Origin: Pirellulales bacterium
GTDB taxonomy: Bacteria; Planctomycetota; Planctomycetia; Pirellulales; JAICIG01
NCBI GenBank assembly: GCA_035533075.1
Contig: DATLUO010000142.1
Coordinates: 1-40,047 of the forward strand
Length of the DNA: 40,047 bases
Reading direction: 5' to 3'
The notes beneath the pieces were generated by a model. That model made no database searches and was not told where the DNA came from. It worked only from the letters and a program-made list of their open reading frames with translations. The translations under genes and the position numbers were made by a program. This document shows positions 140 through 36,643 of the stretch, piece by piece (the first letter of the stretch is position 1; the number at the start of each line of letters is the position of its first letter).

Positions 140-167
140 CACCCAAGACCCAAGTCCCAAGACCCAA
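140..167. repeat. Heptamer tandem array (GACCCAA)
   Basis: Four consecutive 7-base units read CACCCAA, GACCCAA, GTCCCAA, GACCCAA. It is one of several arrays in this window with a 7-bp period and a locus-specific unit. It lies about 220 bp upstream of the DUF885 start. Confidence 0.8.
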
Positions 168-253
168 GGCGGTCGATCGAAAGTTTTGACCGCAGCCGCG
201 AAGACCGCGATCAAGAAAGAGCGCGTTGCCAGCCGGGCGGCACGTTGCCATCG

Positions 254-5175: not shown

Positions 5176-8100
5176 ATGGGTTCATGGACATTCCGCGCGC
5201 GTTCCACGCAATCCCGCCGTAAGCAACAAAAGAAAACGGATTCCTTGCGGCGAGTCAAGCTCGACCGGCATAACTGTGAACTGCTCGAACCTCGACTTCT
5301 GTTGACCGCCGATCTGGCGATCACGAAAGCGCAAATCGCTCCGCTGTCAGCGGGCGTTCCTGCCGCCGTCTCCCAAGGCGAGATGATCGGCTACCAGATC
5401 ACGGTCGCCAACAACGGCAGCACGGCGGCCAGCGGCACCACCCTTACCGATACCCTTCCGGCCGGCGAAACGCTGCTCGGCGCCAACAACGGCTCCACGG
5501 GAGCATCCCTGCCGTTCAGCGGCGACACCCTCAGCGACAATTTGGGCAGTCTGGCCGCGGGCGCTTCCGCCACCCTCACCATCGACGCACTGGTCAACGG
5601 ACAGGCAGCCGGCACCCTCACCAACACTGCCAGCGTTTCCTCAGCCGACGAGAACGGCGGCCTGCCGATCGTCTCGGCGCCCGTTTCCACCACGATCGAC
5701 TTGCTTGCCAGCACCGCCGCCAGTCTCTCGATTACCAAGACGGCGGCGAACGACAACAGCGTCGTCTCCGTCGGCGGCGGCGAAACGTACACCATTACCG
5801 TCGCCAACAACAGCGCCAACGCCGCCGACAATACCACCGTGTTCGACGTGTTGCCGGCCGGGGCCACATTCGTTTCCGGCACGGTCTCCGGCGGCACGGG
5901 ACCAACCACGCTCTCGGCGCCGACGGGCAACTTGGAGACGATCGACCTGGGAACGCTGGCCGCGAATAGCTCGGCCACCATTACCATGGCGGTCACCGCC
6001 CCCAGCAGCGTGGGCGTGATGGTCAATCAGGCGACCGTGGCCACCAGTTCGGGCAACACCACCGTCGCCAATGCCTCGGCCTCGCTGACCACCGCGGTGC
6101 AAGGAACCACGGCGCCGACCAGCGGCACGGTCGACCTTTCGGTGACGAAATCACTCATGGCCGGCACAAATCCCGCCCTGGGTCTGGGGACCAACGCCAC
6201 GTATGTCGTTACCGTCACGAACAACGGCACCGCCGACGCCACAGGCGTGGTCGTTTCGGACGTGCTGCCCGTCGGCGCTCAATTCATCAGCGGCACGACC
6301 AGCGTCAGCGGCGTGAGCGTGACCAGCAGCAACGGTGTGGCCACGGCCACGCTGCCGACCCTGGCCGCCGGGAGCAGCGCCACGCTGACCCTCACGCTCT
6401 CAACTTCGGCCGTCGGCGCGCTGACCGACTCCGTCTACGTCGAGGGCAATCAACCGGACGCCAGCCAGGCAGACAACGTGGCCACCGCGGCCACGCTGGT
6501 CAACGGCTTGGCGGCGCCCGCCGTCGACCTTTCCGTGACTAAAACCGCCTCGGCCACGACCGGCACCGTCGGCGCCGACCTGACCTACACCATCACTGTC
6601 GCCAACAGTTCGGCCAACGTGGCCACCGGCGTCGTCGCCGAAGACGTGCTGCCGCCGAGCTCCACCTTTGTGTCGGCGACGACCTCGACAGGGGGTTCAC
6701 TTAGCCCGGTGAACGGCGTGCTCGTTGACTCTATCGGCACCCTGGCGGCGAGCGGCACCGAAACGCTGACCGTGACCGTCAAGCCGACCGCCGTGCGAGT
6801 GATCACCAACCAGGCGTTCGTGGCCGGCGATCAGCTCGACACCGATCTCAGCAACAACCTTGCCTCGCTCACGACCGCCGTCGAGGGAACGAGCGCCACC
6901 AACGTCAACCTGGCCATCACCAAGACCGCGGCGAACAACAACGCCGACGTGACATTGGGCGCGAACGAAACCTACACCATTACGGTCAAAAACATCGGCA
7001 CCAATGACGCGACCGGCGTGGTCGTATCGGATGTGCTGCCGGCCACGGCGGGCTTCGTCAGCGGCGTCGCCAGCGTCAGCGGGGCCACCGTGGCCGACAT
7101 CAACGGCACCATCACGGCCGACTTGGGTACTCTGGCGGCCGGCGCCAGCGCCACGCTCACGCTGACCGTCACGCCGACCATGCTCGGTGCAATCACCGAT
7201 ACGGCCTACGTCGAAGCGAACGAGACCGACACCGACCAGAGCGACAACTCGGCGACGGTCACGACGAGCATCGTCTCCCCCACGACTTTGGCAAACCTGT
7301 CGATCCTGAAGGTGACCGCTCCCGATCCCGGCACCGTCGGACTGCCGCTGACCTACACCTTGATCGTGACGAACACCGGTTTGGCGGCGGCAGACAACGT
7401 CGTCGTCAGCGACACGCTGCCCAGCGGTGTGACGTTTGCGTCGGCCACGAGCGACGTCAGCGGCGTCACACCCACCAATTCCAGCGGCTCCGTCACGGCC
7501 GACCTCGGCACCGTGGCCTCCGGGGCCGTGGAGACCGTGACCATCGTCGTCACACCCACCGCGGCGGGCACACTCGACAATACCGCAACCGTGACCACCT
7601 CGACGACCAATGTCAGCACGAATACCTCCTCCACAACCCACACCACCATCAACGCGGTCACCAGCACGCAGGCCAATCTCTCGATCGCCAAGTTTGCGAC
7701 TCCCAATCCGGACACGGTCGGGCAGCTGCTGACCTACACCTTGGTCGTAACCAACACCGGCGCGGCGGCAGACAATGTCGTCGTCAGTGACACGCTGCCC
7801 AGCGGTGTGAATTTTGCGTCGGCCACAAGCGACGTCAGCGGCGTCACGCCCACCAATTCCAGCGGCACCGTCACGGCCGACCTCGGCACCGTGGCCTCCG
7901 GGGCCGTGGACACCGTGACCATCGTCGTCACGCCCACTGCGGCGGGCACGGTCAACAACACCGCCACGGTGGCCACATCCACGACCAATGTCAGCACGCA
8001 CACCTCGGCCACGACGGGTACGACCATCAACCCGGCCGTGCAGGCCAATTTGTCGATCGCCAAGCTGGCATCGCCCAGTCCGGATACGGTCGGCCAGAAC

Positions 8101-9999
8101 CTAACGTACGTGCTGATCGTCAGCAATGCCGGGCCCGCGGCCGCCGCCGACGTGACCGTCAGCGACACGTTGCCCAGCGGCGTCACGTTTGTCTCGGATG
8201 GCAGCGACGTCAGCGGTGCCACGTTGACCAACACCAACGGCACCATCACCGCCAATCTCGGCACGGTGGCGTCCGGCGCGGTCGACACGGTGACCATCGT
8301 GGTCACGCCCACGGCGGCCGGCACGATCAGCAATACGGCGACCGTCTCGACGACCACCGCCAATCCCGGCACTCACACCAGCGCCACCGTTCAGACGACG
8401 ATCAATCCCACCAGCGCCGCGGCGAACCTCTCGATCAGCAAGACGGCTTCGCCCAGCCCGGACGTCGTGGGCCAGGACCTGACCTACACCATCGTCGTCA
8501 GCGATGCCCCCGGCGCGGCGGACGCGGCGGGCGTAACGGTAACCGACGCACTGCCGGCGGGCGCGACCTTCGTCTCGGCCCTGGACACCACCAGCGGCGT
8601 CTCGTTGAGCCCCACCAGCGGCACCCTCAGCGACAACATCGGCACGGTGGCAGCCGGCACGTCGGATACGATCACGATCACCGTCACGCCGACTGTCACC
8701 GGCACGCTCAGCAACACGGCCAACGTCACGACGACCACGCCGAACATCAGCACGCAAACTTCGGCCACCGTGCTGACGATGATTACCACGACCAGTGCCG
8801 CGGCGAACCTGTCGATCACCAAGACGGCCTCGCCCAGTCCGGCAACGGTCGGCCAGGACCTGACCTACACGATCGTGGTGACCAACGCGGCGGGAGCGGC
8901 CGCGGCCGACAATGTGTTTGTGATCGACACCCTGCCCGTCGGCCTGGCGACCTTGGTCTCGGCGCAGGATACCACGCGCGGCGTGGCTCTCACCGCCACG
9001 GGGGCCGCCATCAAGGACGACATCGGCAGCATGGCGGCCGGCACGTCCGACACGATTGTGATCGTCGCCACACCGCTCAAGACCGGCCAGATCACCAACA
9101 CGGCCACGGTCCACACGACCACTCCCAACGCCAGCAACAATACGACGGCGGTGGTCAAGACGCCCGTGAACGCCGTCGCGCCTCCAGCGGGTCCCAGCGC
9201 CTACCTCAACGGTCAGACAGGCGACGGCACCGATCAGACGTTCCTCACGAACCTGTATCGCGAGCTGCTCGATCGCAACCCCGATCAGACAGGATTCCAG
9301 TACTGGTTGAATTTCTTGCAAACCAACGGCGGCACGACCGCCAGCGGCCAAAGCAACGCCGCCACGCGGCAGCAAGTGGTGCAGATCATGCTGCACTCTC
9401 AGGAGTATGAAACGCACTGGGTCGATGCCGTGTTCGACAACTTCCTCACTCGCCGCGCCGATCCGGGCGCGGAGAAATTTTTCGTCAACGAGCTGAACAA
9501 TGGCGTCAGCGAACAAGACGTGCTCGTCGCGGTGCTCACGTCTCAGGAATACTTCGGGCATGGCGGTCCGCACGGCCGCGGCGCTCCTCCGGGGCACGGG
9601 CCGGCGGCGGGAGGTTCCAACGAGGCATTCGTCGATAACCTCTTCGCCGAGTTGCTGGGACGTGCCGCCGATACCGCAAGCGAGCAGTTCTATGTCAATG
9701 CTCTTGACAGCGGCCAGCTCACGCGGGCACAGGTGGCGCTCGACTTCCTGAACTCTCCGGAGGAAGCGCACGATCTGATGATCGCCGCCGGGGCGGGACC
9801 GGTCGGCGCGCCGGGTACCCCGGCCACCGGCTCCTACCCCTTGGCGGTGCTCACTGGGGACGGCTGGGACGACCTCTACTTCCAAGGCAACCTCGATTCC
9901 AGTGCCGTCGATCAGTTCATGAGCGCGCTGGAAACGAACACCTCGTGGCAGACCGTACAGCAACAGATGTTGACGCTGCCGCAATACTTCGGCGGGTAG
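5176..9999 (+). CDS. Giant LEPR-XLL surface protein with ten DUF11 repeats and C-terminal DUF4214 modules
   Basis: A 1607-residue protein. It opens with a basic leader and the motif LEPRLLL at residues 37-43, the LEPR-XLL-type signature of large exported planctomycete proteins. Ten DUF11/TIGR01451-type beta-sandwich repeats follow (about residues 45-1340). Each begins with a variant of ANLSITKTAS and contains Y-T-hydrophobic-V-N and DxLP elements. The C-terminus (about 1350-1607) has DUF4214-like modules, recognised by LYRELLDRNPDQTGFQYW, a related FLTRRADPGAEKFFVNEL segment and LFAELLGRAAD. Repeats 6 to 8 are nearly identical over stretches of DNA, indicating recent tandem duplication. The start at 5176 is set by GGGAG upstream and by the leader; the open frame reaches further back without domain content. 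A cell-surface or matrix role is inferred from the architecture; the ligand is unknown. Confidence 0.9.
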   Translation: MGSWTFRARSTQSRRKQQKKTDSLRRVKLDRHNCELLEPRLLLTADLAITKAQIAPLSAGVPAAVSQGEMIGYQITVANNGSTAASGTTLTDTLPAGETLLGANNGSTGASLPFSGDTLSDNLGSLAAGASATLTIDALVNGQAAGTLTNTASVSSADENGGLPIVSAPVSTTIDLLASTAASLSITKTAANDNSVVSVGGGETYTITVANNSANAADNTTVFDVLPAGATFVSGTVSGGTGPTTLSAPTGNLETIDLGTLAANSSATITMAVTAPSSVGVMVNQATVATSSGNTTVANASASLTTAVQGTTAPTSGTVDLSVTKSLMAGTNPALGLGTNATYVVTVTNNGTADATGVVVSDVLPVGAQFISGTTSVSGVSVTSSNGVATATLPTLAAGSSATLTLTLSTSAVGALTDSVYVEGNQPDASQADNVATAATLVNGLAAPAVDLSVTKTASATTGTVGADLTYTITVANSSANVATGVVAEDVLPPSSTFVSATTSTGGSLSPVNGVLVDSIGTLAASGTETLTVTVKPTAVRVITNQAFVAGDQLDTDLSNNLASLTTAVEGTSATNVNLAITKTAANNNADVTLGANETYTITVKNIGTNDATGVVVSDVLPATAGFVSGVASVSGATVADINGTITADLGTLAAGASATLTLTVTPTMLGAITDTAYVEANETDTDQSDNSATVTTSIVSPTTLANLSILKVTAPDPGTVGLPLTYTLIVTNTGLAAADNVVVSDTLPSGVTFASATSDVSGVTPTNSSGSVTADLGTVASGAVETVTIVVTPTAAGTLDNTATVTTSTTNVSTNTSSTTHTTINAVTSTQANLSIAKFATPNPDTVGQLLTYTLVVTNTGAAADNVVVSDTLPSGVNFASATSDVSGVTPTNSSGTVTADLGTVASGAVDTVTIVVTPTAAGTVNNTATVATSTTNVSTHTSATTGTTINPAVQANLSIAKLASPSPDTVGQNLTYVLIVSNAGPAAAADVTVSDTLPSGVTFVSDGSDVSGATLTNTNGTITANLGTVASGAVDTVTIVVTPTAAGTISNTATVSTTTANPGTHTSATVQTTINPTSAAANLSISKTASPSPDVVGQDLTYTIVVSDAPGAADAAGVTVTDALPAGATFVSALDTTSGVSLSPTSGTLSDNIGTVAAGTSDTITITVTPTVTGTLSNTANVTTTTPNISTQTSATVLTMITTTSAAANLSITKTASPSPATVGQDLTYTIVVTNAAGAAAADNVFVIDTLPVGLATLVSAQDTTRGVALTATGAAIKDDIGSMAAGTSDTIVIVATPLKTGQITNTATVHTTTPNASNNTTAVVKTPVNAVAPPAGPSAYLNGQTGDGTDQTFLTNLYRELLDRNPDQTGFQYWLNFLQTNGGTTASGQSNAATRQQVVQIMLHSQEYETHWVDAVFDNFLTRRADPGAEKFFVNELNNGVSEQDVLVAVLTSQEYFGHGGPHGRGAPPGHGPAAGGSNEAFVDNLFAELLGRAADTASEQFYVNALDSGQLTRAQVALDFLNSPEEAHDLMIAAGAGPVGAPGTPATGSYPLAVLTGDGWDDLYFQGNLDSSAVDQFMSALETNTSWQTVQQQMLTLPQYFGG

Positions 10000-10017: not shown

Positions 10018-10177
10018 GTAGGGTGGGACCAGCGAGCTTGCGAGCGCCGGCCCACCATCGCGAGGCGTCGGGCGTCAGACATCAGGCATCGGATTGTTCG
10101 CCCTGACGCCTGACGCCTGAAACCTGACGCCTCAAATCGGTGGGCCGGCGCTCGCAAGCTCGCTGGTCCCACCCTAC
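10018..10177. repeat. REP-like inverted pair with a long spacer
   Basis: The left arm (10018-10055, beginning GTAGGGTGGGACCAGCGAGC) and right arm (10140-10177, ending TGGTCCCACCCTAC) are reverse complements over about 38 bp. The spacer is 84 bp, much longer than the roughly 20 bp of the other pairs, because a heptamer array has expanded in it. It starts 18 bases after the stop of the giant surface protein, so it may act as a transcript end or 3' stabiliser. Confidence 0.9.
10065..10135. repeat. Two opposed heptamer arrays inside the REP-like pair
   Basis: Four units at 10065-10092 (GCGTCGG, GCGTCAG, ACATCAG, GCATCGG) are followed, after 8 bases, by five units at 10101-10135 (CCCTGAC, GCCTGAC, GCCTGAA, ACCTGAC, GCCTCAA). 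The second set is approximately the reverse complement of the first, so this segment can itself fold into a hairpin nested within the REP-like stem. Confidence 0.8.
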
Positions 10178-19983: not shown

Positions 19984-20352
<369 letters not shown>

Positions 20353-20369
20353 TTAAAATTGCAGAGGGA

Positions 20370-20481
20370 TTGGGGGTTGGGTGTTAGGGGTTGGGGACTG
20401 AGAATTCCCAATCCTAATCCCCAACCCGCAACCCGCAACCCCCAACCCCCAACCACCAACCACCAACCCCCAACCCCCAAC
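20370..20481. repeat. Inverted heptamer arrays filling the rpsL-rpsG spacer
   Basis: On the right, nine units of 7 bases run without a gap from 20419 to 20481 (CCCCAAC, CCGCAAC, CCGCAAC, CCCCAAC, CCCCAAC, CACCAAC, CACCAAC, CCCCAAC, CCCCAAC). On the left, about 20370-20396 holds four or five degenerate GGGTTGG-type units, the reverse complement. The rpsL-rpsG mRNA would carry a long G-rich/C-rich stem. The array ends 9 bases before the rpsG ATG and leaves no Shine-Dalgarno. Confidence 0.9.
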
Positions 20482-20490
20482 CCCTCATTC

Positions 20491-20961
20491 ATGGGCCGCA
20501 TAACCGCCAGCCGCGAAAAACTCGTCCCCGACCCCAAGTTTGGGTCGCTCTTGGCCGCCAAGTTCATCAACTGTCTGATGCACGACGGCAAGAAGGCCAC
20601 CGCTCAGCGGGTGTTCTATTCGGCGCTCGACATCATCAAAGAAAAAGTGAAAGACGTCGAGCCGATCGAAGTGTTCACGCAAGCCGTCGAGCACGTGAAG
20701 CCGGAGGTCGAGGTGCGTTCCAAGCGCGTCGGCGGTGCGGCGTATCAGGTGCCGATGCAAGTCAACCGCATGCGGCAGCAGTCGTTGGCGATCCGCTGGA
20801 TTCTGTCAGCCGTCCGCGAGAAGAAGGGGCGGCCGACGCACCAGAAACTGGCCGACGAGTTGGTGGCCGCCTACAACCGCGAAGGCACGGCCGTCACCAA
20901 GCGCGAAAACGTGCATCGCATGGCCGACGCCAACAAGGCGTTTGCCCACTTCGCCTGGTAG
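20491..20961 (+). CDS. rpsG: 30S ribosomal protein S7
   Basis: A 156-residue S7, the assembly-initiating protein of the 30S head. Conserved segments include LVPDPKFGS near the start, [29 protein letters not shown] and the C-terminal [18 protein letters not shown]. The open frame extends upstream, but that part is translated from the heptamer array and is not protein-like; the ATG at 20491 gives the family's usual length and N-terminus ([10 protein letters not shown]). The start has no Shine-Dalgarno because the array runs almost up to it. No fusA or tuf follows: 50 bases later there is a REP-like pair and then csrA on the other strand, so this is a two-gene str fragment. Confidence 0.97.
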
Positions 20962-21010
20962 CGGCCTGGCGCTTTGGCCGTGGTACATCGAGGAATGGGG
21001 CAAAAACGTC

Positions 21011-21106
21011 GTAGGGTGGGACCAGCGAGCGTGCGAGCGCCGGCCCACCATAAACGACGTTGCCAACGGTGGGCCGGCGCTCGCAAGCTCGCTGGCCCCA
21101 CCCTAC
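21011..21106. repeat. REP-like inverted pair between rpsG and csrA
   Basis: Two arms of about 38 bp in inverted orientation with a spacer of about 20 bp (containing GACGTTGCCAACGG). It starts 49 bases after the rpsG stop and lies between convergent genes. Its last bases supply the csrA stop codon (CTA on the plus strand at 21103-21105). Confidence 0.9.
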
Positions 21107-21312
21107 ACCCCTCTCGATCGATCGACGGCGTCCGATGCGCAATCGATCGCGGCTGCCAGCGGCTCACCGGTGAGCTCCCTGCGCAGAATGCTGAGATGCG
21201 GCGGCGCCTCGATGCCGATCCGCACGGTGCCTTGCCCGACGCGGACCACTGTGATCGTGATGTCGTCGCCCACTTGAATGCTTTGGTTGACCTTACGCGT
21301 GACGACTAACAT
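21103..21312 (-). CDS. csrA: CsrA/RsmA-type RNA-binding regulator
   Basis: A 69-residue CsrA, a homodimeric RNA-binding protein that represses or stabilises mRNAs by binding GGA-containing hairpins. The N-terminus MLVVTRKVNQSIQVGDDI and the core RIGIEAPPHLSILRREL (about residues 31-47, with the RNA-contacting arginine of the IEAP...I-R-E segment) are typical. The start at 21312 is fixed by a perfect AAGGAGG 8 bases upstream; a seven-codon upstream extension overlaps that site and is rejected. Residues after LRREL are a low-conservation tail whose last codons and stop come from the REP-like repeat, so the repeat has redefined the gene's 3' end. No flagellar genes or fliW are nearby. Confidence 0.93.
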   Translation of the reverse strand: MLVVTRKVNQSIQVGDDITITVVRVGQGTVRIGIEAPPHLSILRRELTGEPLAAAIDCASDAVDRSRGV

Positions 21313-21373
21313 GGACGGCCTCCTTGCTGGCATGGAACGGGTTGGTTTTTGCCGCCCGGCGATGGAGCGGGGC

Positions 21374-21407
21374 TGCTAGCATACAAGTGCTAGCACTCCC
21401 AGTGCAA
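21374..21407 (-). promoter_or_regulatory. Possible csrA promoter overlapping two TGCTAGCA palindromes
   Basis: On the minus strand TTGCAC (21402-21407), 18 bp and TATGCT (21378-21383) form a moderate sigma70-like pair. The palindrome TGCTAGCA occurs at 21374-21381 and again at 21388-21395, exactly 14 bp apart, overlapping the -10 and the spacer. The arrangement would suit a repressor operator between csrA and the divergent Sua5/TsaC-type gene. Confidence 0.4.
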
Positions 21408-21437
21408 GCAGTTTTCTGCTGGCAGTCTTAAGACCTT

Positions 21438-22475
21438 ATGGAAACAGAAGTTATCGCGATCGACCCCGTTACGCCGCGGCGCGGTCCCCTGGCCCGTGCG
21501 GTGGAGGTTTTGCGTCGCGGCGGACTGGTCGCCTTCCCCACCGAGACTGTCTACGGCCTCGGCGCCAACGCGCTCGACATCGCCGCCGTGGCAAAAATCT
21601 TTGCCGCCAAAGGCCGTCCGGCCACGAACCCGATCATCGTGCATGTTGCCAGTTCGGAGCAGGTCAGCGAGGTAGCGGCACAGTGGCCGCCCCTCGCACA
21701 GGCATTGGCCGAACGCTTCTGGCCCGGCCCGCTTACGCTGGTGCTGCCGAAGAATCCCAGCATCAACGATATCGTGACAGGGGGTGGAGACACGGTGGCG
21801 GTCCGTTTGCCGGCACATCCGGTTGCCCGGGGGCTGATCCGGGCCGCGGGGCTGCCCATCGCCGCGCCCAGCGCGAATCTTTCCACGCGCGTTAGTCCCA
21901 CGCGGGCAGAGCACGTGCTTCGCGGACTGGCCGGATGTATCGACTTGCTGCTTGACGGCGGCCCCACAGCCGGCGGACTGGAATCGACGGTGCTCGATTT
22001 GACAACCACACCGCCCATGCTGCTGCGGCCAGGCCTGGTCTCGCCGCAGGAGATCGAGGAGGTCATCGGTCCCATCCAGCGACTTCGCATTCCCGATATA
22101 TTGCTGCCGTCCAGCCCCGCCCGTTCGCCGGGCATGCTCCGTCGGCACTATGCGCCATCGGTGCCGTTGGAGTGTCTTTCCGCAAGCAGGCCGCGCGTGG
22201 AAGCGCTTTGCCGGGCCGGGCTGCGAGTCGGTTGGCTGACGCTCGGCCCGGCGGCACGCGACGAACAGAGCGGCCTCTTCGCGATCGAATTACCCGCCGA
22301 TCCGGCCGGTTACAGCTCGCAGCTTTATGCGGCATTGCACACGCTGGAGGCACTGGCCCCCGATTGGATCGTGGTCGAATTACCGCCCGATGGAGAAGCC
22401 TGGTTGGCCGTCCGCGACCGCCTCCGCCGCGCGGCAACCGAGCCAATCCGGCAGTTTGGAATTGGACGCCCATGA
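21438..22475 (+). CDS. L-threonylcarbamoyladenylate synthase, Sua5 type
   Basis: A 345-residue Sua5/TsaC-family enzyme that makes threonylcarbamoyl-AMP from threonine, bicarbonate and ATP for the t6A37 modification of ANN-decoding tRNAs. The catalytic YrdC-like domain covers about residues 10-215, with VAFPTETVYGLGANA (residues 31-45), KGRPATNPIIVHV (about 57-69), FWPGPLTLVL and the nucleotide-binding PSANLST segment. A shorter C-terminal Sua5 domain follows a linker with SPGMLRRHYAP, which makes it the long Sua5 form rather than the short TsaC. The gene is divergent from csrA over 125 bp. Other t6A genes (tsaB, tsaD, tsaE) are not in the window. It could be written sua5 or tsaC; the symbol is left blank because usage varies. 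Confidence 0.92.
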   Translation: METEVIAIDPVTPRRGPLARAVEVLRRGGLVAFPTETVYGLGANALDIAAVAKIFAAKGRPATNPIIVHVASSEQVSEVAAQWPPLAQALAERFWPGPLTLVLPKNPSINDIVTGGGDTVAVRLPAHPVARGLIRAAGLPIAAPSANLSTRVSPTRAEHVLRGLAGCIDLLLDGGPTAGGLESTVLDLTTTPPMLLRPGLVSPQEIEEVIGPIQRLRIPDILLPSSPARSPGMLRRHYAPSVPLECLSASRPRVEALCRAGLRVGWLTLGPAARDEQSGLFAIELPADPAGYSSQLYAALHTLEALAPDWIVVELPPDGEAWLAVRDRLRRAATEPIRQFGIGRP

Positions 22476-22734
22476 ACGAACGGAATGAACGGTTCCGACG
22501 GACACTTCGGTGGCCGGGGCAGAAGCTGGCCGCGATCGATCCGTCCATTGCAATACGCGCCGCCGGCCAGCGATGCCCCGGTGGTGGCGCTACCGGGGCA
22601 TCGCCGCCGCGGAGCGGTTTGCGCAGAACTGCCCGGTCGGCGCGGCTCTGCCCCAGCCACCACCTTTGTCTCAGCGACGTCCATCCTGTGATCAACCAAA
22701 TACAAACTGCTGGACGACAGCATAGGCACTAGAC
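22476..22734. other. Gap with an 11-bp hairpin (22572-22602)
   Basis: No gene is supported. A perfect 11-bp inverted repeat (GATGCCCCGGT at 22572-22582 and its complement at 22592-22602, 9-base loop) lies about 100 bases after the Sua5-type gene. It lacks a T-run, so it may be a factor-dependent terminator or an RNA-processing hairpin. No consensus promoter for the UbiD gene was found. Confidence 0.45.
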
Positions 22735-25129: not shown

Positions 25130-25541
25130 CCGCTTTCGCGAACGCGGCATCGTTTGGTTCGCGGCGGCTTGTTGGCTTGCGGCGGTCGCCTGAGCTCGCG
25201 CGTAGGATCTGGGTTCATTCGCCGTCGGAGTAGGCCGCGTTCGGATCTTAGTCCGGCTCACCGCCGATTCCAGGCGGCTGGCCGCGGTGGCGTCAGCCAC
25301 ATCCCTCTTCCCTCATCCTTCATCCCTCATCTCTCGTCTCCCAGGTACGACCATCCCATGCTTCGCTCCTCAGTCAGCGCATCTTAGCCTCTCCGCGCGG
25401 CCAAACACATCCGTTTGCCGGCCCGTCGGTTTTGTCGTCCTGAGCAAGAACGCTAATCGGCGCGAATCAACGCTAACGGCGTGGGCAGGGACTGCCGCAA
25501 CGATCCGTTGAAACACACGTTATGAATCGGCAAGGAATGAT
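25130..25541. other. Intergenic region before the ycjX-like gene
   Basis: No gene is supported. The stretch contains the heptamer array at 25300-25341 and a direct repeat AACGCTAA at about 25450 and 25470. The composition is ordinary for the window, and the long open frames on either strand have no domain character. Confidence 0.5.
25300..25341. repeat. Heptamer tandem array (CATCCCT)
   Basis: Six consecutive units: CATCCCT, CTTCCCT, CATCCTT, CATCCCT, CATCTCT, CGTCTCC. The array is pyrimidine-rich on the plus strand and degenerates toward its right end. Confidence 0.8.
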
Positions 25542-33172: not shown

Positions 33173-33776
33173 CACGGCACCGAAATGGTTTGAAGCGAGC
33201 GATTCACGAAGCGTCGCGGCGCCCTCTGCGCGGCGAATGATCGGCCTTATCGCGAACCGTCCCCTCGGTATTCTCGCGACGCGCGCGGCCCCGTGCAAGC
33301 GATTTTCGCCGAGAAACTGCGAGCGGCGGCTTTAGCGTCGCGCTTGGCTCAGATGACCGGGCCTTGCGGACCGCGTGCGGCTAATCGATGATGGCTGCCA
33401 AGCGACCAATGATGTTCTGCCGCGATGCGAACGCGAACAGGATTCCATCCGGCTGGTGCGGCCGAACTGGGGCTATTTATAACGGCGACGAGGCCGGGCG
33501 GCAGAGGTCGAAGAGGCCCGATCGCGGGAGCTTCGCCGCGCTGCTGGCCGCGTACATCGGGCTGAGCGCAGCGGCGGTGGTGTGGTATTAAGGGCGGGGT
33601 TGGTAGTTGGGGATTGGGGATTGGGGGTCCAGCGTTCGGGGTTCAGGAAAGGCGGAGGGCAGAAGGCAGAAAGATGCCCGCGGGACCGAAAGGCCAGCGT
33701 CAAGGATGCCCGAGTTGCCAGTGGGCAAGCACCGGCGGACCGGTTTTGTGCGGGTGCGCGGCGAAGGCGTCGGACG
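33173..33776. other. Gene-free stretch with a degenerate heptamer array
   Basis: No gene is supported. The left part (33173-33300) may be decayed coding sequence linked to the antitoxin-like gene. The array at 33599-33675 is listed separately, and the segment after it (33676-33776) shares no recognisable element with its surroundings. Confidence 0.4.
33599..33675. repeat. Degenerate heptamer array (GTTGGGG/ATTGGGG)
   Basis: Eleven units keep a 7-base phase: GTTGGTA, GTTGGGG, ATTGGGG, ATTGGGG, GTCCAGC, GTTCGGG, GTTCAGG, AAAGGCG, GAGGGCA, GAAGGCA, GAAAGAT. The unit drifts along the array while the period holds. The tail shares GGTTCAG, GAAGGCA and GATGCC with the array at 34584. Confidence 0.75.
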
Positions 33777-34761: not shown

Positions 34762-34838
34762 AGTGGTTAGTGGTTAGTGGTTAGTGGTTAGTGGTTAGTG
34801 GTTAGTGGTTAGTGGTTAGTGGTTAGTGGTTAGTGGTT
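34762..34838. repeat. Perfect heptamer tandem array, 11 x AGTGGTT
   Basis: Eleven identical 7-base units without a mismatch, 77 bp. Perfect homogeneity points to a recent expansion or ongoing homogenisation. It is followed at 34846-34861 by the perfect 16-bp palindrome CCACAACATGTTGTGG. Confidence 0.95.
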
Positions 34839-35700
34839 AGATCGACCACAACATGTTGTGGCTCTCACGACGAGAACCACAAGATGTGCGAAGATGGCCA
34901 ACTGCGAACATAATGAGTTGCCGTGACGCGAAGATCAGCATCGCGCTGGCGAGACGCAGGCGGTAGGCTGCGATGCCGAGCGGCAAAGTTGGCCATCTTC
35001 GCCGGCGCACGGGGTTTTTGGCATTCGGGCAGGCGAGACGCCTGCACCACAAGGTCGTTGGAACTTGGCAGCCTTCGAAATCGGTTGGCAGCCTTTGAAC
35101 TCCAAAGTCCACGCCTTGTCGCCGCGCCTCGATGGCTCGGCGCGGCAAAGCGCACAATTTCCGTCAGATCGCGTTCAAACCGGCGGGCGCCAGGCGGCGC
35201 AAGTGCTTGTGTAGAAAAGGTTTCGGCTGGCGTCGCCGCCGAAACAAAAGGGGGGATTCTGTTGCGCTCCGCCGCGCGCGGCGGACGACCATGCAACTCG
35301 CCGCCGCGCGCGCCGGGGTCGCGACGGCCCGTGCCTTCCGGCCGGCAGGGCGGAGGCGACACGCGTGTCGCCTCGATCGCACGAGAGAAGGCGGACCGAG
35401 CCAAGCCGTAAGCGACGCCGCCGCCACCAGCGCGGCCGGGGGCGACCGCTCGACGGCCAGGCCGGAGAGGGGCAAATGCGTCGCGCGCGACGTTTTTGCC
35501 GGCGCCTCGTACCTTCCGGCGGGAGGCGCCGACGCGACACGCGTGTCGCATGGAAGACATCACTCCCAGGGCCTGCATGAGCGGGGGGATAATTGATCAT
35601 ACCGCACTGGTATCGACCATGGCATCCGCTTCGTATCGCCGCACCGCCGACTTCTTGAGTTTCTTCCGACCGCCGCCAAAATGTGATACCCTGGACCACA
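34839..35700. other. Gene-free, palindrome-rich region
   Basis: Several hairpins and no convincing gene. A 15-bp inverted repeat (34889-34903 and 34987-35001, CGAAGATGGCCAACT) encloses 83 bp with a further internal inverted repeat. GCAGGCG AGA CGCCTGC lies around 35039-35055. A perfect 22-bp palindrome centred on ACACGCGTGT is at 35353-35374, and a shorter version, GCGACACGCGTGTCGC, is at 35534-35549. The last two are preceded by similar CCTTCCGGC sequences, so they are copies of one repeat. Long open frames on both strands here have no domain content. Confidence 0.7.
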
Positions 35701-36555: not shown

Positions 36556-36590
36556 AGGGTTCAGGGTTCAGGGTTCAGGGTTCAGGGTTC
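36556..36590. repeat. Perfect heptamer array, 5 x AGGGTTC, at the SDR start
   Basis: Five identical 7-base units; on the minus strand these are GAACCCT repeats that end 3 bases before the SDR initiation codon. This places the array in the 5' untranslated region of that gene, where a ribosome-binding site would be. Confidence 0.95.
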
Positions 36591-36643
36591 AGAGATTCCG
36601 GCTCGAGGATTGGCGACCCTTGACGCATTTGGCCTGTAAAGTG

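Follow-up and report, generated by a model that had tools for sequence, protein, structure and literature searches.

The heptamer repeat in the spacer between the ribosomal protein genes rpsL and rpsG of this Pirellulales bacterium almost certainly belongs to a class of arrays that occurs genome-wide. The sequence shows that unit length in this class is fixed at 7 bp and unit sequence is free. The polarity is fixed as well, the strand reading outward from a gene being G-rich at the gene border. We lean towards the view that the arrays come from polar, recurrent growth in spacers and that the hairpin they can form is a by-product.

The rpsL–rpsG spacer and its predicted hairpin

Within the window, by which we mean the whole stretch of 40,047 nucleotides analysed, the spacer and its flanking genes are arranged as follows:

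19984..20352, + strand: rpsL (ribosomal protein S12), 122 aa, stop codon TAG ending at 20352
20366..20396, + strand: G-rich arm, four to five degenerate heptamers (GGGATTG, GGGGTTG, GGTGTTA, GGGGTTG), directly 3' of rpsL
20397..20421, + strand: middle without units, separating both arms (ACTGAGAATTCCCAATCCTAATCCC)
20419..20484, + strand: C-rich arm of CCCCAAC-type units, 9.4 copies, ending 6 nt short of the rpsG ATG
20491..20961, + strand: rpsG (ribosomal protein S7), 156 aa, ATG at 20491

The rpsL gene showed 82-100% identity to rpsL of relatives among the matches listed. With the rpsL TAG ending at 20352 and the rpsG ATG at 20491, the spacer has the 138 bp given in the original prediction, and the nine CCCCAAC-type units claimed to face four to five G-rich units were found at 20419-20484 and 20366-20396, respectively. 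TRF described the C-rich arm as a period-7 repeat of unit CCCCAAC with 9.4 copies and 93% matches. The predicted fold of the spacer RNA (−57.2 kcal/mol) was stronger than the mean of shuffled sequences (−39.4, z −5.71) and was equalled by none of 200 shuffles, so that the proposed strong mRNA stem stands as a prediction. The stem does not end 9 bases before the rpsG ATG as had been stated, since pairing in the fold extends to 4 nt and the repeat to 6 nt before it. Direct reading of the 20 bases before rpsG revealed no SD-like motif, in agreement with the claimed lack of a Shine-Dalgarno sequence. An SD-like 4-mer precedes only 34% of the 778 ATG starts in the genome (17% after shuffling), and an SD-less rpsG start is therefore ordinary here.

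Between 20200 and 20600 we found neither an intrinsic terminator (a GC-rich stem with a U-run behind it) nor a sigma-70-like promoter, and both candidates were rejected; no promoter was thus found in this interval that would give rpsG a leader without the repeat. A known RNA family was likewise rejected, as no Rfam covariance model matched over its gathering score in the whole window. The suggestion that the stem blocks read-through translation gained no support from the sequence, the spacer being open in the rpsG frame from a TTG at 20359. This open frame spans the whole spacer and rpsG (20359-20961, 200 aa), and automatic annotation may consequently add a false N-terminal extension to S7.

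The spacer was compared at 99 planctomycete loci, after 11 of 110 had been dropped (two duplicates, five without rpsL or rpsG and four with spacers over 400). That this spacer is short in most bacteria was loosely true here, the planctomycete median being 85 bp, but 22 of the 99 were at least 138 bp long. A period-7 array with a score of at least 11 was present in eight of these 99 spacers, with different units each time, and arrays are thus found in some relatives; at the same score, periods 5, 6, 8, 9, 10 and 11 were found in none of them. The array nearest to rpsG was C-rich in eight of the nine spacers with a score of at least 8, the exception being locus L081. Stable folds (z below −3) were predicted for 11 of 83 folded rpsL–rpsG spacers, both with and without heptamers. 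In the sister genome, G001, the spacer also carries a heptamer, but of a degenerate CCACCAG type over 53 bp vs. CCCCAAC over 138 bp here, so neither the array nor the CCCCAAC unit is conserved. Together with the similar arrays that occur at about 96-123 per Mb genome-wide, this leaves the idea that the spacer tunes S7 against S12 unsupported. Four array-bearing rpsL–rpsG spacers among the named loci compare with 6 array-bearing ones among 361 predicted spacers of any type, a comparison of small numbers that is confounded by length and poor gene calls.

Beyond rpsG the window holds an inverted REP-like element at 21010-21105 (GTAGGGTGGGACCAGCGAGC...GCGAGCGCCGGCCCACC and the complement), and closely similar sequence adjoins arrays in other contigs (L137, L138, L143 and L148). 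This element and another gene follow rpsG at 20961-21440, and in G001 an EF-G-like reading frame, judged by eye, lies about 100 bp past rpsG. The str operon seems to be split in the window, unlike in G001.

Heptamer arrays in the window and the genome

Elsewhere in the window TRF located seven more period-7 arrays, each with a unit of its own:

141..168, + strand: array of unit ACCCAAG, C-rich on the + strand
10102..10132, + strand: period-7 array of unit CCTGACG
25302..25340, + strand: array of CATCCCT type
33607..33626, + strand: short period-7 array of unit TTGGGGA
34762..34840, + strand: array of AGTGGTT, 11.3 perfect copies
36556..36592, + strand: array of AGGGTTC; the CCCTGAA family is the commonest in the genome
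38919..38949, + strand: array of AATCCAA

In 1,005,794 bases of the same genome (a 1.006-Mb subset of pieces picked by contig number, regardless of repeats), arrays with a score of at least 14 numbered 97 at period 7, vs. none at periods 4 and 5, two each at periods 6 and 8, and three at period 9. This was further supported by a smaller own-genome sample, where 34 period-7 arrays were found vs. 0 in a resampled-sequence control. The density of period-7 arrays was 96-123 per Mb (scores 14 and 11), which extrapolates to roughly 800 to 1,050 arrays in the 8.54-Mb genome. A 1.40-Mb sample, made up of 81 own-genome pieces of which 18 came from contigs chosen for a CCCCAAC match, with the window as one more chosen piece, held 197 arrays with 45 main units, the most frequent being AACCCTG (49 of 197) and AAAATCC (36 of 197). 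A canonical G4 motif was present in 48 of the 197 and missing from 149. The 21-mer made of three CCCTGAA units has 390 overlapping matches in the genome. Of 196 genomes of the order, 15 contain it and none contains the 21-mer with its letters in reverse order. Other planctomycetes were poorer in such repeats, with 10 period-7 arrays in 1.23 Mb around rpsG.

Other repeats were seen in passing. One contig of this genome, G000, starts inside a 168-bp CCCTGAA array (L152 1-168), and such arrays probably break the assembly. An intergenic segment at 22504-22661 of the window has more than 10 matches of 68-94% scattered over G001 and is a dispersed repeat family. At 7319-8345 TRF found a 378-bp tandem repeat with 2.7 copies within a large gene (5176-9999), which probably encodes repeated protein domains.

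To see how arrays differ between G000 and G001, orthologous spacers were compared in an operon read by eye as flagellar (L148 14209-19806 vs. G001:C66). At L148 15032-15156 G000 has an array pair of AAGACCC type; in G001 stop and start are about 8 nt apart there. The next compared spacer carries AAGGCAG arms in G000 vs. no array in G001, the third AAGGCAG vs. AACCCTG, and the fourth AACCCTG in G000 vs. a GTGAGTG arm facing an AAAATCC arm in G001. Because the same spacer of the sister genome is either array-free or filled with another unit, the arrays are recent and continually renewed in this operon and in the rpsL–rpsG spacer.

Polarity at gene borders

Gene borders were taken from a simple, purpose-written gene finder and the distances are approximate; 19 starts among 879 predicted genes were moved owing to array overlap, and the 31 of 197 arrays that fell within predicted genes were excluded from the border counts. 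Arrays inside long predicted ORFs (L130 14802-18233, L133 17961-19206 and L135 7781-10101) represent either real gene insertions or false ORFs. The 148 arrays flanked by a neighbour at either side lay a median of 18 nt from the nearest border. Arrays were densest in co-directional spacers, including those of operons such as str and flagellar.

Among the skewed arrays no more than 60 nt from a border, the outward-reading strand was G-rich in 97 of 107, while 10 broke the rule and three more arrays were unskewed. Within this distance the rule was kept in convergent (8/8) and divergent (10/10) spacers and by 48 of the 55 skewed arrays on the stop side; beyond 60 nt it was kept by 26 of 38. Isolated skewed arrays followed it as well (37 of 42). 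The arrays at 20366 and 20422 of the window fit this pattern, in which the G-rich strand is the non-coding one before starts and the coding one after stops. If the outward strand is G-rich at each border, two arrays in one spacer must read 5'-G-rich ... C-rich-3' on both strands. Indeed, the G-rich array lay to the left of the C-rich one, read on either strand: the 57 pairs of neighbouring arrays within 150 bp in the 1.40 Mb were distributed as GC 43, CG 0, CC 8, GG 5 and G= 1. In the subset picked without regard to repeats the pairs were GC 29, CG 0, CC 6 and GG 3, and in the relatives G001, G043, G050 and G078 they were GC 24 and CG 1, the pieces of the last three having been chosen for holding the CCCTGAA unit. 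At a lower threshold C-before-G clusters made up 2 of 187 in the own genome and 3 of 103 in other genomes.

The arms of 22 of the 43 GC pairs share no 7-mer, which shows that the polarity is not hairpin-dependent, and the hairpin was rejected as the common denominator. In line with this, the arm-to-arm duplex energy per nt was −0.55 for unlike arms and −0.63 for random G and C arrays, vs. −1.46 for like arms. Matching arms were still commoner than chance (21 of 43 vs. 14.8% of random draws), and the arms of one spacer thus tend toward a common origin or later matching. A canonical G4 was rejected as the common denominator because the motif is present in only 48 of 197 arrays. General border composition was rejected as the cause, since array-free spacers are nearly unskewed (−0.024 and +0.017 vs. 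−0.192 and +0.147 in array-bearing ones). Coding constraint in the form of stop codons in one orientation was rejected after inspection by hand of the listed units, in which, varying with the unit, stops fall on one strand, on the other or on neither. Taken together, we are confident that the polarity is independent of the hairpin and of the canonical G4.

Possible origin and meaning of the arrays

The reading that we find best, with somewhat more confidence than doubt, is that of polar and recurrent array growth in spacers, and it is favoured because a single cause would then cover both starts and stops, along with convergent spacers and unlike arms. A polar process with a 7-nt step would lengthen G-rich 3' ends, and growth from both sides would run toward the middle of the spacer, akin to a head-to-head fusion of two telomere ends; where matching units came to stand on both arms, as at rpsL–rpsG, the transcript could form a strong hairpin. 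In telomere fusions G-rich 3' ends meet head to head, and the G-rich strands of the array pairs meet in the same way here (GC 43 vs. CG 0; 24 vs. 1 in relatives). Tentatively, we infer that polar end-growth by a putative enzyme might be what causes the arrays. Growth from the middle is weakly suggested by 17 composite clusters, in which the outermost arms match in seven and the innermost in two. Nested composite arrays, with AGGGTTC-type units outermost on both sides and others within, were seen at L131 8244-8408, L201 15877-16056 and L216 13477-13613; the one in L201 has one further C-side segment beyond the outer units.

Several points weigh against polar growth. No growth enzyme was identified; three RVT_1 (reverse transcriptase) matches over cut-off do lie in the genome. 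The rule is broken by 10 of 107 border arrays, a few C-before-G clusters appear at the lower threshold, and the excess of matching arms would also be predicted by selection for hairpins. Since every border is either a start or a stop, selection directed at borders predicts the same counts, and counts alone cannot separate it from growth polarity.

One form of such selection, which we regard as rather unlikely, would keep arrays as border elements for one-way braking of RNA polymerase. A polymerase leaving a gene in either direction would make G-rich RNA first, leading to R-loops or G-quadruplexes and slower run-off into the neighbour, while one entering a gene would meet C-rich sequence and pass unhindered. 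This accounts for the polarity at starts, at stops and in convergent and divergent spacers, and for unlike arms and isolated arrays too. However, 149 of 197 arrays have no canonical G4 motif, orthologous spacers do without arrays, and the density is highest in co-directional spacers, operons (str, flagellar) included, where a brake would be unwelcome.

Neutral slippage, where the replicative polymerase expands seeds anywhere by 7 nt and arrays survive only in spacers, is in our opinion unlikely. Most arrays do lie outside predicted genes, and the available part of PMC4692102 quotes an idea that links 7-nt units to the polymerase footprint. To explain the polarity, selection would have to purge the wrong orientation for two separate reasons, namely damage to translation or mRNA from a G-rich leader upstream of a start, or from C-rich sequence downstream of a stop; yet the rule is equally strong at borders of convergent genes, which include no start (8/8), is kept on the stop side (48/55), and array-free spacers have almost no such skew. 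Slippage alone also leaves unexplained how the same units came to stand at hundreds of sites, as illustrated by the 390 overlapping matches of three CCCTGAA units.

A more specific version of polar growth is quite unlikely as it stands: a putative enzyme would add freely chosen G-rich 7-nt repeats to 3' ends at spacer breaks, and the extended ends would then be joined head to head. The units could be supplied by a set of templating RNAs or by copies of existing arrays. Ku-dependent joining was rejected, as Ku is present in 12 of 39 genomes and absent from the array-bearing G005, G018 and G023.

The model of the original prediction, in which a dedicated hairpin acts as attenuator or translational control and sets S7 against S12, we hold to be very unlikely. 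The strong hairpin predicted 4 nt before the rpsG ATG and the start without SD-like motif are in its favour, but the array is just one among many in the genome, is not conserved at this spacer, comes with neither a U-tract terminator nor a promoter, and has no G-arm in the 53-bp spacer of the sister genome. With the class genome-wide and the spacer not conserved, an rpsL–rpsG-specific control hairpin was rejected as the main reading; the hairpin is most likely a by-product of array growth and any effect on S7 incidental. Fold-back copying, in which a palindrome would form through snap-back copying of one arm from the other, is hardly credible, for although half of the pairs have a unit common to both arms, the other half are unlike and variant units lack mirrored order (only one of 36 like pairs beats unit-order shuffles at 0.05), and it was rejected on that ground.

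Cyanobacteria carry heptanucleotide STRR repeats, and to our knowledge an excess of heptamers between genes has been recorded in bacteria without an accepted cause. The closest likeness is to the heptamer repeats of Xanthomonas (GGGAATC) and Nostoc PCC 7120 (GGGGA(T/C)T) described by Rehm et al. 2015 (PMC4692102), for which, in the available part of that paper, the border rule is reported without a function found. Those repeats too have 7-bp units, are intergenic (within 50 bp of gene borders), carry their G-rich sequence on the non-coding strand upstream of starts and on the coding strand downstream of stops, vary in length and sequence between relatives and, in Xanthomonas, form inverted pairs in convergent orientation. 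Exact 7-bp units, a mostly intergenic position at borders, the strand rule and inverted convergent pairs are all seen here. In contrast, the work there covered one type of G4-forming unit per genome, as far as the accessible text of PMC4692102 goes, and in a different phylum; here the 1.40 Mb hold 45 main units with no single G4-forming consensus (48 of 197 with G4), G4 motifs are missing from most arrays, and the arms are unlike in half of the facing pairs.

Other systems share single traits, as far as the available parts of these papers show. The TAACTGA heptamers of marine Beggiatoaceae (PMC4679880) lie just before starts, mostly without a ribosome binding site and in a preferred orientation, but have a single unit, no G/C bias, two to six copies and one inverted case. 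Geobacter metallireducens (PMC2700814) has several families of heptanucleotide elements in one genome, but with four or five copies and within genes too, and a polarity rule was not found in the accessible text. The repeats of Subirana and Messeguer (PMC8161180, PMC6749651) combine constant unit size with variable sequence and include heptamer-derived satellites in some bacteria, but measure 52 or 20-21 nt in Bacillus, and border polarity was not found in the portions available. DRT10 (PMC12632851) is a bacterial enzyme that makes tandem-repeat DNA by telomerase-like repeat synthesis, but, according to the part available, it uses a protein primer and an RNA template, and the period in the example given is 9 nt.

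We found no description of such arrays in planctomycetes in the literature searched, subscription papers lying mostly outside it. What is new is the occurrence in this phylum, with many units in a single genome and with unlike arms, the last two of which separate polarity from structure. With the hairpin and the canonical G-quadruplex removed as common basis, polar growth or border-directed selection remain, and the two differ in what they predict for arrays newly arising in culture. Operon hairpins of this kind should not each be taken for regulators. If the enzyme-based version of polar growth were true, these planctomycetes would build part of their intergenic DNA by a bacterial equivalent of the healing and fusion of telomeres.
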